DNA of 43,984 nt from Ferrithrix thermotolerans DSM 19514 (GTDB lineage Bacteria; Actinomycetota; Acidimicrobiia; Acidimicrobiales; Ilumatobacteraceae), in contig CAMASN010000024.1 in assembly GCA_945861025.1 (NCBI GenBank), positions 1-43,984 on the forward strand, in the 5' to 3' direction. Shown here one piece after another: positions 1 to 21,970 of this stretch. The notes under the pieces are model-generated. The model did no database searches. It worked only from the letters and a program-made list of their open reading frames with translations, and was not told where the DNA came from. Position 1 is the first letter of the stretch; each line of letters opens with the position of its first letter. The position numbers were made by a program, and so were the translations under genes.

Positions 1-171
1 CGCTACTCCCACCAACGCTTCACAGCAATGCTGCACACCTCGCTCGGCGTTACACCCTCACCCGAAACCGTCGCGATCACGAACGCAATCAACCAAGGAA
101 TGCCAGCCGCACAACTACTGCTACTCGCATGCCCAAACACCCCCCAACCTCGAATTCGCGCAACCCAATAA
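1..171 (+). CDS. C-terminal end of a BTAD-type transcriptional regulator (partial)
   Basis: An open frame runs from the first base to TAA at 169-171 and encodes 56 residues; its start lies outside the window. The segment FTAMLHTSLGVTPSPET, followed by a short helix, resembles the end of the bacterial transcriptional activator domain found in SARP/AfsR-like regulators, where an 'LGVxPSPET' turn is characteristic. After this the protein ends in a short tail rich in Leu and Pro. Only the domain end is visible, so the DNA-binding part and any ATPase part cannot be judged. The assignment rests on one short motif and is moderately sure. Confidence 0.5.
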   Translation, partial: RYSHQRFTAMLHTSLGVTPSPETVAITNAINQGMPAAQLLLLACPNTPQPRIRATQ

Positions 172-372
172 ACCCAACCACCAAAAATCGCTCACCGAAG
201 CGCCCATCACAACTTCTTCCTGACACCCGACGCTCACATCCATCCGGCTCAACAAGCGATCGACTCGACACCGATTTTTCATTCGGGACCGAGCAACGGA
301 AAACTTGCCCCGATTCACCCAACCGTGAAGAATTGAGCGAGTTACATTCGTATCCGAGAACAGGACACTCGC

Positions 373-16273: not shown

Positions 16274-16417
16274 CGGTCACCGCTCGGCAACCGAACCGGT
16301 ACTGCCGACTCCGTCAATTCTTGAGTGGATTAGTCGGGAATTGCCGTAGCGTGTCCCCCGAAGCACCGCTCGAGCCAATGCATGCCCGGGCCAACCACTC
16401 ACAGAGGAGACCCCACC

Positions 16418-17053
16418 ATGACTGTTCGTCTTGGCGATATCGCACCAAACTTCGACGCTCCAACAACTCAGGGCGACATCAACTTCCACGAATGGCTCGG
16501 CGACAGTTGGGGCGTGCTCTTCAGCCACCCCCGCGACTTCACGCCAGTGTGCACCACCGAGCTTGGCTACGTGGCCAAGATCAAGCCCGAGTTCGATAAG
16601 CGCAACGTGAAGGTCATCGGCCTCTCGGTCGACTCGGTTGAGAGCCACCTCAAGTGGGAAGGCGACATTGGCGAGACCCAGGGCACCCCAGTGAACTTCC
16701 CAATGATCGGCGACACCGACAAGACCGTTGCCAACTTGTACGACATGATCCACCCCAACGCCAACGACACGCAGACGGTGCGCTCGGTGTTCGTGATCGG
16801 CCCAGACAAGAAGGTCAAGCTGCAGATCACCTACCCAGCCTCAACCGGCCGCAACTTCGAAGAGATCCTTCGCGTGATCGATTCGTTGCAGCTCACAGCG
16901 CAGTACAAGGTTGCAACGCCAGCCAACTGGACCAACGGTGGCGATGTCATCATCGGCGCCGCCGTGTCAGACGACGAAGCCAAGCAGTTGTTCCCACAGG
17001 GTTGGACCACCGTGAAGCCATACCTGCGCGTTCTTCCCCAGCCCGGCAAGTGA
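16418..17053 (+). CDS. 1-Cys peroxiredoxin (Prx6-type)
   Basis: The 211-residue protein has the peroxiredoxin core with peroxidatic Cys45 in 'SHPRDFTPVCTTELG', preceded by the conserved His37. It continues with 'KVIGLSVDSVESHLKWEGDI' and 'FPMIGDTDKTVANLYDMIHP', and has a C-terminal domain ending 'GWTTVKPYLRVLPQPGK' typical of the Prx6 group. No second conserved cysteine is seen, so reduction needs an external thiol donor. A strong AGAGGAGA ribosome binding site lies 8 nt before ATG. It reduces hydrogen or organic peroxides in the cytoplasm. It converges on the operon that carries an AhpD-like selenoprotein, a possible reductant; that link is inference. Confidence 0.93.
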   Translation: MTVRLGDIAPNFDAPTTQGDINFHEWLGDSWGVLFSHPRDFTPVCTTELGYVAKIKPEFDKRNVKVIGLSVDSVESHLKWEGDIGETQGTPVNFPMIGDTDKTVANLYDMIHPNANDTQTVRSVFVIGPDKKVKLQITYPASTGRNFEEILRVIDSLQLTAQYKVATPANWTNGGDVIIGAAVSDDEAKQLFPQGWTTVKPYLRVLPQPGK

Positions 17054-17072: not shown

Positions 17073-17564
17073 CTACAACAAATTGGCCTGAACCCAGGCA
17101 CGTACTGAAGGCGCCAGTCGGTCGAGATGATCGGCTGGCGCTTCACGTATCTGGGTCGCGCTGATGGGCACCGTGACCCGCTCGGCATCGACCACAACCG
17201 CTTGCGCATCGAACCGCCGGGCGAGTTCGGCGATATACGCATCACTGCTGAACACCACATGGGGTCCGATTTCGTGCGGCCAGCGCGACCGCAGCAACAG
17301 CATCCACTTGGCCCACAGCTCTTCGTTGTCGAAGTCGTTGTCGAGATCGTGAAGCACCTCGACAACCGCAACGCGCGGGTGCAGCTCGGCAAGCCACTGG
17401 GCGCGTAGATGGCCCGGCACAAGTTCGCCATCGCGCGTGTTCACGAACACGACCAACCGATCAGTGCGCTGCGCCGCCCAATCGATCATGAACGAATGAC
17501 CAAGGTGTGGCGGATTGAATCGACCGATGATCAGCCCCGTGGAATAACGCTCGTCATTCGACAT
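17073..17564 (-). CDS. Nicotinamide-nucleotide adenylyltransferase-like (NadR/NadM type)
   Basis: The 163-residue nucleotidyltransferase has the signature 'GLIIGRFNPPHLGHSFMIDWA' split by the HxGH ATP-binding site (residues 14-23) and the second phosphate-binding motif 'ISATQIRE' near residue 135. The length and motifs fit archaeal NadM or the N-terminal domain of NadR, which join NMN and ATP into NAD+. It is the last gene of a minus-strand operon, 6 nt after the AhpD-like selenoprotein gene. Another cytidylyl- or adenylyl-transfer reaction cannot be excluded. Confidence 0.8.
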   Translation of the reverse strand: MSNDERYSTGLIIGRFNPPHLGHSFMIDWAAQRTDRLVVFVNTRDGELVPGHLRAQWLAELHPRVAVVEVLHDLDNDFDNEELWAKWMLLLRSRWPHEIGPHVVFSSDAYIAELARRFDAQAVVVDAERVTVPISATQIREAPADHLDRLAPSVRAWVQANLL

Positions 17565-17570
17565 CGAGAT

Positions 17571-18098
17571 CTATTGCTCGCCGGGCGAACCAGGGGTTCG
17601 CAGCACCGTGATATCCATCTGCTCCGGCTCTGCACCCACTGCGATGAGCAACTTGCTGAAGCCATGAAATAGCGCGAGCCCGATGCCCATCTCAGCAATC
17701 TCGGCATCGGTGAACTGCGCAGAGATTGCCGCTTGCGAAGCTGCATCTGGCGGGCCTGCGGCGGCAAAGAACGCATCGCTGAACGCAAGCGCCGCCTTGT
17801 GCCGCGGCGTTAACGCGCTGGCCTGAAAGTCGTCGTCGACCATCTCGGCTATCTCTTCGGTAACTAGCTCTTGCTTCGCGACCGCGAAGCGAACGTTGCG
17901 TCAATACCCGCAATCAATCGTGCGCGCATTTCGCAGGCGCACCACTTCTTTGGTGGGTTGGTCGAGCACGCCGTGGCTCCAAAACTGCGAGTACAGCTTG
18001 GCGTAGATGCCCACAAGCTCTGGCTGGTGATACAACATGCCGCCGTACGAAGTGGTCTCTTCGCCGAACGCTGATGGCATGCGAGGTGACGTGGACAT
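17571..18098 (-). CDS. AhpD-like (carboxymuconolactone decarboxylase family) selenoprotein
   Basis: Read through an in-frame TGA at 17901-17903, this 176-codon frame makes a 175-residue AhpD-fold protein. Upstream of the TGA it reads 'RLRNARTIDCGY', downstream 'RNVRFAVAKQELVTEEIAE' and 'LTPRHKAALAFSDAFF'. This is the continuous family pattern R-N-A-x-x-x-x-C-x-x-C-R-N-V-R-F, with the TGA exactly at the second Cys (CxxU, Cys63 and Sec66). AhpD proteins use this pair to reduce peroxiredoxins or handle peroxides. A hairpin suited to be a SECIS lies just downstream. TGA is an ordinary stop elsewhere in the window, so the code is not reassigned. The gene starts 15 nt after the first AhpD-like gene, with a weak AAGG site. 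A recent nonsense mutation is the alternative. Confidence 0.8.
17873..17890 (-). promoter_or_regulatory. Putative bacterial SECIS hairpin
   Basis: In the mRNA, 10 nt after the UGA, GCUUCGCGGUCGCGAAGC folds into a perfect 7-bp stem with the tetraloop GGUC. The loop starts 17 nt after the UGA, and its first two bases are G. These fit the published bacterial SECIS rules (loop about 16-37 nt downstream, G within the first two loop bases). The GGUC loop resembles that of E. coli fdhF as I remember it. No bulged U is seen in the stem. Confidence 0.7.
17901..17903 (-). other. In-frame TGA, predicted selenocysteine codon
   Basis: TGA replaces the second cysteine codon of the CxxC motif in the AhpD-like gene. 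A single TGC or TGT would restore the canonical Cys form. The reading frame stays open for another 109 codons on the far side with full family similarity. Confidence 0.8.
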
Positions 18099-18113: not shown

Positions 18114-18488
18114 TCAGTCGGCCTGGTTGGGGGCGACGAGATCGAGTTTGGTGAAACCGTCGAGCAACGCGAGATGAAACAACAGTCCCATTTGCTCGGC
18201 GTGCGTGTAGTGATCGGAGAGCGCCGCAAACGTGGCGTCGTCGAGGCCATGCACATCGATGATGAACTGCTCGACAACTGCCAATGCTGCATGCTCGGCG
18301 GGCGTGAGGTCTGCGGGCAATGACTCGTGCCACGGAGCGCACAACAGTTGCTGCACCCGGATGCGGGCCAGCTCACCGGTGCGACCCGGCGCCGCTGCCG
18401 CAGCCTTGGCGGTGATTTCGTTCACGCGCTCGGCAAGCGGCGCGCGATGTTCGATCAGCGCTAACGCTGATGGCTGCAGCCAAGTCAT
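18114..18488 (-). CDS. AhpD-like protein lacking the CxxC motif
   Basis: This 124-residue protein is a divergent paralogue of its downstream neighbour. Shared features are 'LTPAEHAALAVVEQFIIDVHGL', compared with 'LTPRHKAALAFSDAFF', and 'HAEQMGLLFHLALLDGFTKL', compared with 'DAEIAEMGIGLALFHGFSKL'. In the active-site region it has only one cysteine (Cys50 in 'RVQQLLCAPWHE'), so it cannot form the usual redox disulfide. ATG 18488 overlaps the stop of the cyclase gene (ATGA), which fixes the start. It may form a heteromeric partner with the selenoprotein; this is inference from adjacency. Confidence 0.75.
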   Translation of the reverse strand: MTWLQPSALALIEHRAPLAERVNEITAKAAAAAPGRTGELARIRVQQLLCAPWHESLPADLTPAEHAALAVVEQFIIDVHGLDDATFAALSDHYTHAEQMGLLFHLALLDGFTKLDLVAPNQAD

Positions 18489-21400
18489 GCCACAGCCTCG
18501 CGCAGCGTCGGTAGCGCATCCACAACCGAGCGCCACCCAGGGCCAAGTGCGTCGACAACGCCAGCTCCACGTTCGTGCGCAACACCAAGCACATGTTGGT
18601 GAGCGCACAACGCAAGCGCGGTAGCCACCTGATCTTGCGTGGCAGTAGCCAACGACACAGCCCCCTCGAGCCACGTGCGAGCGGCGCCAGCATCGCCTTC
18701 GGATGCTGCCGAGGCAGCAGCAGCAACGCCGGCAATGACGCCGTCGAGATAGGTATGGCCGCCGACGTCAGACACCCGCGTGGCAGCCTCGATGGCCTCG
18801 CCTGAACGGCCCTGCAGCGCAGCCACCAGCGCAACCGCTGCCTGCATAAACGGATGAGCGTCGGGGCCGAGGGATACCTGAGCCAGCGTCGTATGGGCTT
18901 CGTCGTATCGACCCGTCTGAGCGAGGCCAACAGCCAAGACGACGCGCGATTCGTTGGGATCAGCAAAGGTTTCGTTGAGACGACGCACGGCTTCTTCTGC
19001 CAGCAACACGGTGGTCTTGCCATCGCCAGCGTGCATCGCAATGCCCGCCGCGGCAAGCAACGAAAACGCCGGTTGATCAAGATCGCCTGTCTGAGCCAAC
19101 AACGCCTCAGTGGTGCGCGACACGTTGGGGTCGCGCACCGCAACCTGCGTACGTCCCAGAACGGTGAGCGCCTGGCGCAAGCCAAATCCATCGCCAAGTC
19201 GTTTGAACTTATTGAGGGCCTGCTCGGCAAGTGCCGCCGCAGCCTCGATTTGTCCGGACCAGAGACGCAAGTTCGCGAGCAACGACATCATGATGCTCTC
19301 GGCCCATTCGTCGCCCCGCTCGCGAGCCTCGGCTCGAACTTGAGTGGCAAGCGCTTCAGCTTCGGGGAATCTGCGGTTATAAAAGTGAATGAACGCAAGA
19401 ACCCCATATGCCCAACCAAGGCCGGCGCGATCGCCAAGCTCGGTCATCGCCACGATCGAGTTGTTAATGCGTTCTTCGGCAAGATTGATGTCGCCACCAA
19501 GGAACGACATGAAGCCGCGGTGTTGCTCGATATTGCTGAGTCCGCGCCTATCGCCAAGTGACGTGTACAGGCCCTCGGCCTCGCCAAACAACCACTCGGC
19601 ATCGGCGAGCGAACCGCCGAACAACTCAAGGAATCCGCGGGCGCGAAGCGTGTCGGCCAACTGCTGCGGGTCGTCGAGCAAACGGAAGATCGCGACCGCT
19701 TCTCCCAACTGCCTCCGTGCGGTGGCCAAGTCTCCTTCGACTTGACTGATCACGCCGCGGGCGCGACGAACACACGCTTCGGTGGCTTGGTCGTGAGCCG
19801 CCATCGCTTCGGTGAGCATCGAATCAGACTCGACTCGAGCGCGCTCGAGCTGCCGGCGCCCAATCAAGGCATCAAGCCGACCGAGGCGTAATTCAGCACG
19901 TCGGCCACGCGTCTTGTCGGGAATCGCCAAGAGCTCAAGTAACTCAATGGCACGTGAGGAGTAGCGCACAATGAGGCGCAGGTTTCCCTGCTCGATCGCG
20001 CGCTTGGTGGCTGCTTCGAGCGCCACCAGGGCGCGTTCGTTGATGTCGGCTGGCACAAGATCGACTGGGCCGATTTCTGACACCAACTCGGCAGCCGCTG
20101 CAAGGTGGTGAGCGACCTCGTCGGGGCTGACGTGGCGCGACTCCATCACCATCGCGACACCCATGTGTCGCGCTGCCCGCACGGCCTTGGTGAGTGTCTG
20201 GTACGCAACCTCGCGCACCGAATCAGACCTGAACGACCAGCGTCTGCCATCGAGTTCGAGAAGACCGAGATCGGCCAAGGCGTCGAGCACACCCGGGCCC
20301 ATCTGTTGCCCCAAGGCGTCGCTGAATCGCTCGAGCGACTGAATGGCACCAGAGGGACCAAGCACCGCAGCGTTGTCGATAACGGCACGTTGGTCGGGCG
20401 GCAGTCGATCAAGGCGGGCAGCAACCACGGCACGTAGCGAGTCGGGCAGCGCGGCCACATCGCCGCCATCGGCTACCAAAACGGCCAACTCTTCGAGGAA
20501 CAGCGGGTTGCCACCGGACCGCTCGTAGATAGTAGAGATAACCGCTTCGTCGGCGTCGTCGCCGATGATTGCCCGGCACAAACGCGCGGCCGCTACTTGC
20601 CCGAGCGGTTCGAGCGGCAACCGAACAACAGCCGCACGCGTGCTCAGCGGTGGCCACACCAGTTCTGAGTCGGGACGATTGGTGGTGATCAGCACAAACG
20701 GGCTGCGCGCCAACGCAATGAGTAGGTGCTCGCACAACGCAAGAACCGCTGGGTCGGCCCAGTGCAAGTCGGTGATCGACAGCATCACCGGGCCACTACG
20801 CAACCTGGCTTCAAGCACTGCGGTGACAGCGCGAGTAATGCCATCTCGCGCTACAACGGGATCGACGTCGTCGAGTTTCGACGGAGCGCCCAGCAGATGC
20901 AACAAGGCCTCGGAGAGTTGGGTACGAGTTGCTGCATCGGCATCACTGAACAGTTCAGCCAAGAACGCGTCGGTAGTCTCACGCAGACTTCCGAAATAGG
21001 TAGATGCGTCGAGGTCGAAATGACCAAACAAAGCAGTTGCGATGGGCCACCACACGTTGGCCTCGCCGTACGGCACCGAGTAGCCCTCCATGATGAAAGC
21101 CGACTTGGCCTCGCGGGTCGACTCAAGCAGTTCGTCGACCATGCGACCCTTGCCGACGCCGCCCTCACCGTCGACAGCGACCAAGGCGGCCTGCGAGTTC
21201 GTAAGGGTGAAGTCGACCGCCGCTTGCATCAACGCAAGTTCGGTGGAGCGGCCCATCATCGGCACATCTCGACGTCGCACTCTGGCTCCGGGCTGCGCTA
21301 CTGCCGCGACTGCGAGCCACGCCGCTACAGGCGCCTCGCGCCCCTTAGCCGCCAGCTCGCCCTGAGAGGCGTAGGTGATGTTTGCTTCGGACAAGGCGTA

Positions 21401-21970
21401 GGTGGTCTCGCCAACGAGCACTCCCCCGGGAGGCGCCAACGATTGCAGTCGTGAGGCGGTGTTGACCACGTCGCCCATTGCGGTGTGATCGGTGCCAGCC
21501 ACAATGCCAACAAGTGCAACGCCGGTGTTGATGCCCACCCGCATCTGTAGTTCGCTTGGCGAATCGGAGGCGAAGCCCGATGACGCAAACGTGGCCAGAG
21601 ACTCCTGCATTCGCAAACCTGCCCGCACAGCGCGCTCAGCGTCGTCTTCGTGAGCGACCGGCACCCCAAACAGGGCAACGATGCCATCGCCCATCAACTT
21701 GTCGACGGTGCCTCCAAAGGCAGTGATGTCGGCAACGAGGCGCTCGAAGCACACGTCGATCAGGCGTTTCACTTGCTCTGGGTCAAGATTCTCGGAGAGA
21801 GACGTGAAACCCACGAGATCGGCGAACAGCACGGTGACGACACGCCGCTCTTCAGCTGTTGACGCTGCAAGCGCGAATCCACACGTTGGGCAAAAGCGGG
21901 AGCCGACAGCTACCGGATTTGCGCAGGAGGGGCACGAACTCACGCAAGGATCGTACGGCATGAGTTCCAT
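18485..21970 (-). CDS. Class III adenylate/guanylate cyclase with AAA ATPase and TPR regions
   Basis: The 1161-residue protein begins with a zinc ribbon (CPSC at 13-16, CPTC at 27-30), followed by a class III cyclase domain (about 42-215). Metal-binding Asp51 (FADLVGFTSLSE) and Asp95 (KLMGDG), Lys91 and the 'MGDVVNTASRL' motif (Asp167, Asn170, Arg174) are all present, so it should be active. A STAND/AAA-type ATPase module follows (about 235-510). Its P-loop 'GEGGVGKGR' has Gly where Ser or Thr is normal. The rest, from about 610, is helical TPR-like repeats. It heads the operon with the AhpD-like genes and NMN adenylyltransferase. ATG 21970 is chosen; ATG 21961 is possible. A signalling role that senses a ligand through the TPR part is likely. 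Confidence 0.9.
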   Translation of the reverse strand: MELMPYDPCVSSCPSCANPVAVGSRFCPTCGFALAASTAEERRVVTVLFADLVGFTSLSENLDPEQVKRLIDVCFERLVADITAFGGTVDKLMGDGIVALFGVPVAHEDDAERAVRAGLRMQESLATFASSGFASDSPSELQMRVGINTGVALVGIVAGTDHTAMGDVVNTASRLQSLAPPGGVLVGETTYALSEANITYASQGELAAKGREAPVAAWLAVAAVAQPGARVRRRDVPMMGRSTELALMQAAVDFTLTNSQAALVAVDGEGGVGKGRMVDELLESTREAKSAFIMEGYSVPYGEANVWWPIATALFGHFDLDASTYFGSLRETTDAFLAELFSDADAATRTQLSEALLHLLGAPSKLDDVDPVVARDGITRAVTAVLEARLRSGPVMLSITDLHWADPAVLALCEHLLIALARSPFVLITTNRPDSELVWPPLSTRAAVVRLPLEPLGQVAAARLCRAIIGDDADEAVISTIYERSGGNPLFLEELAVLVADGGDVAALPDSLRAVVAARLDRLPPDQRAVIDNAAVLGPSGAIQSLERFSDALGQQMGPGVLDALADLGLLELDGRRWSFRSDSVREVAYQTLTKAVRAARHMGVAMVMESRHVSPDEVAHHLAAAAELVSEIGPVDLVPADINERALVALEAATKRAIEQGNLRLIVRYSSRAIELLELLAIPDKTRGRRAELRLGRLDALIGRRQLERARVESDSMLTEAMAAHDQATEACVRRARGVISQVEGDLATARRQLGEAVAIFRLLDDPQQLADTLRARGFLELFGGSLADAEWLFGEAEGLYTSLGDRRGLSNIEQHRGFMSFLGGDINLAEERINNSIVAMTELGDRAGLGWAYGVLAFIHFYNRRFPEAEALATQVRAEARERGDEWAESIMMSLLANLRLWSGQIEAAAALAEQALNKFKRLGDGFGLRQALTVLGRTQVAVRDPNVSRTTEALLAQTGDLDQPAFSLLAAAGIAMHAGDGKTTVLLAEEAVRRLNETFADPNESRVVLAVGLAQTGRYDEAHTTLAQVSLGPDAHPFMQAAVALVAALQGRSGEAIEAATRVSDVGGHTYLDGVIAGVAAAASAASEGDAGAARTWLEGAVSLATATQDQVATALALCAHQHVLGVAHERGAGVVDALGPGWRSVVDALPTLREAVA

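Follow-up and report, generated by a model that had tools for sequence, protein, structure and literature searches.

The locus analysed here raises the question of whether a TGA triplet inside an AhpD-like reading frame encodes selenocysteine (Sec) and, if so, in what company the resulting protein would act. The gene lies within a stretch of 43,984 nucleotides from an uncultured actinobacterium, which is referred to as the window. A sequence-only reading had proposed an AhpD-like selenoprotein, with the TGA at the second cysteine of the AhpD/CMD motif C-x-x-C; the coordinates that it gave for the gene proved correct, but it named no strand. Translation placed the gene on the minus strand, as a frame that opens with ATG, closes with TAG and is interrupted by only one TGA (Table 1), and the residues flanking this codon in the encoded protein are RLRNARTIDCGY-U-RNVRFAVAKQ. 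Translation of the plus strand of the same interval (17571-18098) gave no comparable frame. With the TGA read through, the Pfam CMD profile (PF02627) matched the window protein at 28.8 bits (cut-off 23) over residues 31-104, a match that crosses the TGA codon and agrees with the earlier statement that family similarity continues uninterrupted on both sides of it. The same profile matched 29 of 30 homologues at an E-value of 0.01. A plasmid search with the window selenoprotein returned no match.

Because 7 of the 12 genes checked around the locus end in TGA, this triplet is a normal stop in the genome. A recoded genome, which had been discounted from the start, was ruled out on these counts. 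The initial reading had also considered that resequencing might reveal TGC or TGT at this position. The identical TGA is present in two separate MAGs, L054 (Acidimicrobiaceae ZH-Jul18-164) and L055 (LacPavin), with proteins 94-97% identical, which makes a sequencing error unlikely.

Table 1. Features of the probable selenoprotein locus, in window coordinates
Feature	Position	Strand	Description
1-Cys peroxiredoxin	16382..17053	+	NF009668, 213.6 bits (cut-off 211); convergent; possible redox partner
NMN-adenylyltransferase-like protein (NadR N-terminal-domain type)	17073..17564	-	PF01467; TIGR01526 at 79.1 bits (cut-off 341, not reached)
AhpD/CMD-family selenoprotein gene	17571..18098	-	175 aa; probable Sec at residue 66, E51-x11-C63-G-Y-U66-x3-R70; stop TAG; Pfam CMD, codon column and invariant residues (30 sequences)
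SECIS-like hairpin	17873..17890	-	7-bp stem, loop GGUC, loop start 17 nt past the UGA; covariation
In-frame UGA	17901..17903	-	Probable Sec codon; TGA in 29/31 loci, TGT/TGC in the remaining two
Partner gene	18114..18488	-	Diverged paralogue of 124 aa lacking CxxC; AhpD fold predicted, active-site helix missing in the model
Class III nucleotide cyclase + AAA ATPase + TPR protein	18485..21970	-	Pfam PF00211, PF13191, PF13424; directly upstream of the partner

The probable Sec codon column across the order

We searched 298 genomes of the order with the window protein, and 84 of them gave a match at an E-value of 1e-5. The codon column was then read in 31 loci including the window, namely the best-scoring matches of the order together with L054 and L055, in each case with a tblastn match spanning the column; L049 was left out of the count, as its match does not reach that far. 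At position 66, TGA was found in 29 of the 31 loci, representing 12 families, and cysteine codons in the other two, TGT in L028 (genome G264) and TGC in L046 (G289). This alignment of homologues, one of the checks suggested at the outset, bears out the assignment of the TGA to the second cysteine of the motif. Across all 112 match rows from the 298 genomes, 75 contained TGA as the only internal stop, two contained both TGA and TAG, 35 were free of stops and none contained TAA.

The tree and the protein alignment comprise 30 sequences, with L050 left out; L030, which contains unknown residues, was dropped from alignment A5, and the L083 partner, which carries a long insert, from alignment A6. 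In the tree of 30 proteins, the cysteine-bearing L046 is surrounded by sequences from TGA loci (support 91/78); one or more exchanges between Sec and Cys are therefore probable.

Weaker CMD matches in the order often carry an in-frame TGA too, in part in genomes where no SelA match was found (9 of 63). AhpD-like selenoproteins seem to be abundant in the order, the codon-level reading having covered the best loci only.

A covarying hairpin at the SECIS position

Downstream of the UGA, the window can form the stem-loop GCUUCGC-GGUC-GCGAAGC (-14.6 kcal/mol). Using two stem offsets that were picked after seeing the data, we divided the TGA loci into group 1, comprising 17 loci with the loop at 17 nt, and group 2, comprising the other 12 with the loop at 24 nt. 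At least six of the seven pairs form in 17 of 17 rows of group 1, as compared to 21 of 1,377 control codons taken from the same genes at the same offset. Similarly, at least six pairs form in 11 of 12 rows of group 2 and at 12 of 929 control codons. The two Cys homologues form five and two of the seven pairs at the first offset and four and two at the second, neither of them getting to six.

Compensatory changes maintain the pairing of this stem-loop, which stands where bacterial SECIS elements are located. In group 1, both sides have changed in four of the seven pairs, pairing extends to 99.1% of cells and none of the five measures was reached by any of 500 shuffles; when the stem was slid along the sequence, at most 54% of cells were paired. 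In group 2, 92.9% of cells are paired, and no shuffle out of 500 equalled the 11 double-change cells or the covariation score. Of the five measures, two were not unusual, being matched by 30 and 138 of 500 shuffles, respectively.

Two other lines of evidence for a SECIS element were rejected. The stability of the window hairpin was nothing unusual relative to shuffled sequences (z -0.63, with 46 of 200 shuffles as good). The published bSECIS rule, as given in PMC13188914, comprises a loop of 3-9 nt, a stem of 4-16 bp, a G in the first two loop positions, a distance of 16-37 nt past the UGA and an energy of -7.5 or lower. The window (17 nt, GGUC) and 28 of the 29 TGA loci fall within this rule; it also admits both Cys homologues and 905 of 2,308 control codons. 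In view of this 39% background, the covariation and exact-offset tests were used instead. Rfam, applied to the window at the gathering score, gave no match.

Selenocysteine machinery in the genomes

A search for selA, selB, selC and selD had likewise been suggested. In the window's assembly (G000), profile searches detected selB (289.5 bits, cut-off 242) and selA (325.8 bits, cut-off 22.8), which adjoin each other on contig 28, with selA running past the contig end. The selD profile was matched at two contig ends, over profile positions 1-86 on contig 5 (C5:78939-79187) and 220-310 on contig 59 (C59:15941-16219), with both pieces scoring under the full-length cut-off. As control genomes also give sub-cut-off matches to this profile, further hallmarks were needed for selD. 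We read the two pieces as one gene split by an assembly gap, partly on the basis of SelD hallmarks.

A tRNA-Sec was not found in G000 with RF01852 (150 of 360 candidates scored), with a relative's tRNA as DNA query, with a model made from ten relatives' tRNAs (150 of 2,715 candidates scored), with a 26-base pattern allowing two mismatches (which has matches in 5 of 10 genomes) or with Rfam at the gathering score on ten loci of the assembly. The proposed gene set was hence recovered for selA and selB, in two truncated sub-cut-off pieces for selD, and not for the tRNA. Nor was a tRNA-Sec found in G298, the genome of L054 and the window's nearest relative. Across 14 chosen related genomes, a tRNA-Sec over the cut-off was present in ten, including G299 (the genome of L055) and G134 (a complete one-contig genome of the same family, holding locus L074), and was not found in G170, G070, G264 and G298. 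ARAGORN classified all ten of these relatives' tRNAs as tRNA-SeC with anticodon TCA. The flanks of the G299 tRNA-Sec are absent from G000 apart from two 31-base matches; therefore, either this region is missing in G000 or that G299 contig is foreign. Genome G214 has two tRNA-Sec-like matches over the cut-off (C110:56-147 and C137:39045-39123), the second being shorter and located on the same contig as selA.

Of the 27 genomes with a strong match carrying TGA (the top 31 rows of the order-wide match list), 26 have SelA, versus 157 of the 271 others (Fisher p 1.8e-5, kinship ignored). The one exception, G170, is 83% complete. When any TGA-bearing match was counted, SelA was present in 54 of 63 genomes and lacking a match in nine. 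As for the two Cys genomes, G289 is among the 183 with SelA and G264 is outside this set. The selenoprotein gene lies near selA in L083 (2713-9871, G051) and L082 (G093). In L083, about 7 kb read in one direction hold the partner, the selenoprotein, an ABC ATPase, two permease-like ORFs, selA and a selB-like ORF, the permeases and selB being assigned by eye.

Selenocysteine weighed against a stop and against ordinary read-through

If the TGA were a genuine stop, the locus would encode a 65-residue protein or be a pseudogene, or else the triplet would be a sequencing error. Translation table 11 does yield a 65-aa ORF and a separate 90-aa ORF in the downstream part; standard gene calling splits such selenoprotein genes in this manner, so that further ones have probably escaped notice. 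However, the TGA is retained throughout most of the loci, in-frame similarity carries on downstream of it, the CMD match runs across it, and the codons past it have dN/dS values of 0.18 (versus L054) and 0.22 (versus L055), indicating purifying selection. The comparison with L025 gave 0.75 over codons 67-116 (50 codons), which counts against our preferred explanation. Based on the conservation of the TGA and the downstream purifying selection, we rejected the short protein, the pseudogene and the sequencing error, and regard this group of explanations as extremely improbable. Reading of the UGA by a near-cognate ordinary tRNA, for example one for Cys or Trp, would not involve Sec and would fit the failure to find a tRNA-Sec in G000. 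Against it stand selA and selB in the same genome, the tRNA-Sec of G134 and G299, and a stem that covaries at the SECIS position and that the Cys homologues form less well or not at all at the same offset, which together render such read-through highly improbable. The selenocysteine reading, in turn, is supported by the exchange of Cys and TGA at one column, the covarying SECIS-like stem, selA and selB, the selD pieces and the co-occurrence with SelA. The UGA at 17901-17903 thus very probably codes for selenocysteine, as judged from comparative sequence data.

A partner protein without CxxC accompanies the probable selenoprotein

The partner gene starts within the cyclase stop (ATGA) and ends 15 bp before the selenoprotein gene. 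For the window's own partner, Pfam returned nothing credible, only DUF6431 at an E-value of 0.3, which is why its fold was predicted. The resulting model (pLDDT 86, pTM 0.76) has PA0269 as its best solved match, with a TM of 0.72 on the query, a Foldseek E-value of 0.007 and a probability of 1.00; by E-value, the Foldseek matches are weak, the best being 0.007 and 0.003. The CMD profile matches 3 of 10 partner homologues, at best with 3.5e-9. The window partner is under purifying selection, with dN/dS values of 0.06 and 0.10 versus L054 and L055, respectively.

We searched the 31 loci for a partner with a partner profile, covering 1.5 kb upstream where the sequence allows as well as C-terminal extensions. 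A partner is present in 29 of them: 20 have it in tandem (upstream, at most 94 bp away), eight as a C-terminal fusion and one as an N-terminal fusion (L028; the N-terminal arrangement is that of L028/L077). The profile had been built with 11 tandem and 8 fused partners, and nine tandem partners as well as L028 are independent of it. As to the two misses, a partner ORF (107.6 bits) corresponding to L041 lies 2.7 kb upstream in L082, and locus L050 stops 41 residues past the U. The partners of L076, L085 and L086 are of about full length and also devoid of CxxC.

A profile restricted to the fused C-terminal domains matched all 11 tandem partners tested (E-values 6e-16 to 4e-6). With this profile, the Sec-half or Cys-half domains of L028 and L033 outscored some partners; partner and active half are therefore related, and the fused-domain profile separates them poorly. 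In the tree of 30 proteins, the C-terminal fusions form one clade (97/98) that lies beside the window's family at weaker support (84/82). The fusion in both domain arrangements, along with the tight tandem spacing, is a pattern classically associated with chains that bind each other and suggests that these two do so. From fusion and adjacency, we infer that partner and selenoprotein form a heteromer.

The cyclase operon as a family-level association in the sampled neighbourhoods

The NMN-adenylyltransferase (NMNAT)-like gene begins 6 bp past the selenoprotein stop. It is separated by 19 bp from the peroxiredoxin gene, the product of which has its sole cysteine at residue 57. The genes for the cyclase, the partner, the selenoprotein, the NMNAT-like protein, the peroxiredoxin and a PNPOx-like protein are kept in L054, in L055, the locus of which begins inside the cyclase (partial), and in G134 (L074, 43-81% identity). 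The operon with a cyclase and an NMN adenylyltransferase that the sequence-only reading had described is hence real, but the partner gene located between cyclase and selenoprotein had been missed. In 12 neighbourhoods from other families, spanning 0.6-9 kb per side (0.6 kb upstream for L075), no match to the cyclase (tblastn, E-value 1e-3), the NMNAT-like protein or the peroxiredoxin was found. On the sampled neighbourhoods, the cyclase/NMNAT-like operon is a family-level association; the partner, not the cyclase, is the general one, conserved across families. The cyclase protein shows sub-cut-off zinc-ribbon matches at its N-terminus.

Active site and proposed mechanism

In canonical AhpD of the Mtb type, the active-site motif is E-x11-C-x2-C-x3-H, with the histidine acting as proton relay. 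Going by this spacing, R70 presumably occupies the place of the relay histidine. PMC4674687 is in line with this placement. Eleven positions are invariant in the 30 sequences, that is E51, R54, R56, A58, C63, Sec/Cys66, R70, A74, D108, E136 and G155. The family departs from the canonical motif: E51 and C63 are kept, the second cysteine is U in 28 of 30 sequences, and the histidine is replaced by Arg70 in all 30. As both Cys homologues also have the arginine, Arg70 is not an adaptation specific to Sec.

Our preferred explanation, to which we assign a probability of roughly 0.75, is that the UGA encodes Sec in an AhpD/CMD-fold oxidoreductase (Cys63-Gly-Tyr-Sec66) that acts as a heteromer with the partner lacking CxxC, divided into catalytic and structural or regulatory halves in a Sestrin-like manner. 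Starting from what was computed, namely the TGA/Cys column, the covarying stem, selA and selB, the gene pairing and fusion and the predicted folds, we infer Sec insertion, the heteromer, the substrate and the redox partners. Decoding of the UGA would pair Sec66 with Cys63, and the selenoprotein would assemble with the AhpD-fold partner encoded upstream, or form a single chain with it where the two are fused, one half being catalytic and the other structural or regulatory. The Sec66 selenolate would attack a peroxide or disulfide substrate, Cys63 would resolve the Sec66 adduct into a selenenylsulfide, and a cellular dithiol donor would re-reduce the Cys63-Sec66 pair. The invariant Arg70 could stabilise the selenolate. 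A candidate for the electron acceptor, within the window's family, is the 1-Cys peroxiredoxin encoded convergently.

Other functions are conceivable for the same fold. It might drive a different thiol- or selenol-dependent reaction rather than act as a peroxidase, for instance reductive dehalogenation of the type carried out by the debrominase Bmp8. Bmp8 structures do appear among the matches, and arginine replaces the relay histidine in all 30 aligned sequences (alignment A4); the Bmp8 structures rank, however, below proteins of the PA0269 and Atu0492 types, and the convergent neighbour in the window, L054, L055 and L074 is a 1-Cys peroxiredoxin, so that we consider such a reaction unlikely. 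Alternatively, the pair could serve as a redox sensor for the upstream cyclase, with Cys-Sec oxidation relayed via the partner and the cyclic-nucleotide level reporting peroxide stress. The tight order cyclase-partner-AhpD(U)-NMNAT in the window, with the ATGA overlap and the two short gaps, would fit such a sensor, as would the conservation of this arrangement in L054, in L055 and, with a selenoprotein identity of 55%, in G134 (L074). Yet the neighbourhoods from other families retain the partner where no cyclase match was found; coupling to the cyclase is therefore unlikely to be the core function, and we have similar doubts about this proposal. The heteromeric oxidoreductase remains the explanation that we favour.

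A Sestrin-like architecture in predicted structures

Sestrins, which are stress proteins of animals, combine two AhpD-like halves in one chain, and we compared them with the predicted structures. The model of the fused homologue from G057 (312 aa; pLDDT 88, pTM 0.88) aligned with human Sestrin2 along both halves (264 residues, model positions 9..305, Z 22.7, rmsd 3.4); single AhpD chains came next (Z 10-12), and unrelated chains scored about 3. This top rank may simply reflect the presence of two AhpD halves per chain; according to PMC11429811, joining an AhpD dimer in silico into one chain likewise gives a structure resembling Sestrin2.

The same source describes the active-site helix as missing from Sestrin-C. 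In the model of the window partner, helix 37-49 is followed by a loop and helix 63-81, with the active-site helix missing, and in the inactive half of the G057 fusion, helix 213-226 is followed by a short helix (230-234) and helix 245-260. The Sec half is modelled with helices 60-64, 68-72 and 77-83 at the equivalent place. With the helix lost in one model and shortened in the other, helix loss would thus also occur in bacteria. On these models, we read the pair as a two-subunit selenoenzyme of Sestrin-like architecture.

Classing the system as a Sestrin was rejected on two grounds. The DDYDY motif, the electronegative hinge of the inactive half in Sestrins, is absent from both loops read, CAPWHESLPADLT in the window partner and HGVRWALDAPTPVTGAAD in the G057 fusion. 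In addition, no Sestrin was among the 24 PDB sequences matched at E-values up to 10, with a profile limited to the active half (166 positions). GATOR2 binding and leucine sensing belong to the eukaryotic proteins and form no part of the present proposal.

A broader proposal would see here a bacterial, Sec-using counterpart of Sestrin, in which an active Cys-Sec AhpD half is joined by a second half, devoid of CxxC and of the helix, for ligand sensing or client docking, the two being encoded by adjacent genes mostly and by one chain elsewhere. It could represent a living intermediate towards the two-faced architecture of Sestrin or have evolved independently, and in the window's family its redox state would feed into the cyclic-nucleotide cyclase and the 1-Cys peroxiredoxin. 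We put this forward as a speculative idea, conceivable but doubtful as a whole.

Comparison with known systems

That AhpD-like selenoproteins had been reported from metagenomic surveys, as the first reading stated, holds true. CMD-domain or AhpD-like CxxU selenoproteins are described from the Sargasso Sea in 2005 (PMC1088965), AhpD-like 1 and 2 selenoproteins from the GOS survey in 2008 (PMC2398784), and such selenoproteins under PF02627, TIGR01926, NF041238 and NF041047 in a 2026 catalogue (PMC13188914). The GOS survey also gives one case of neighbouring Prx-like and AhpD-like selenoprotein genes in its reads (PMC2398784). With these proteins, as far as they are described in the three sources, the window protein shares the CMD fold family, Sec as the second residue of CxxU and a SECIS-like hairpin downstream; it differs in having arginine in place of the relay histidine and an AhpD-fold partner without CxxC. 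The window protein stays below the NCBIfam cut-offs (NF041047, 26.3 against 110; TIGR01926, 25.6 against 81.8; NF053654, 18.8 against 310). NF041238 does not match it at an E-value of 1 and matches 2 of the 30 members at 0.01. A literature search covering the titles and abstract beginnings of open-licence papers found no report of an inactive protein paired with or fused to an AhpD selenoprotein, and none of a selenoprotein from Acidimicrobiia.

The nearest solved relative is PA0269/AhpD of Pseudomonas aeruginosa (2ijc, 2o4d, 7xw1), by sequence for the Sec half and by fold for the partner. PA0269 itself has, in contrast, CxxC followed by histidine in the alignment, and no Sec.

Like human Sestrin2, the fused homologues have two AhpD-like halves per chain with an active-site cysteine in only one of them. 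By model, the inactive half resembles that of Sestrins (as described in PMC11429811) in that its active-site helix is missing (window partner) or shortened (G057 fusion). Unlike Sestrins, the system is bacterial, its halves are two genes in the window, and Sec66 stands where Sestrin2 has Leu128, the position of the second cysteine according to PMC4674687; moreover, the loop of the window partner is without DDYDY, and the active-half profile gave no match at the sequence level.

The tie between a Sec protein and an AhpD-fold partner without active site extends over 14 families of one order, giving a bacterial two-part system of Sestrin shape. The fusions in both domain arrangements make its quaternary structure testable and suggest studying such proteins as pairs. 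The CxxU AhpD/CMD selenoprotein part is an addition to a kind known since 2005; what is new is the CxxC-less partner, together with its fusion in both domain arrangements and the Sestrin-like architecture with Sec. The bi-domain AhpD proteins of Corynebacterium ureicelerivorans and Comamonas aquatica, as presented in PMC11429811, likewise carry the cysteine pair in one half and none in the other. There, the half without cysteines is N-terminal and, in the Corynebacterium protein, keeps its helix-turn-helix, whereas the family described here uses Sec and has its partner encoded mostly by a gene of its own, with many partners shorter at the active-site helix.
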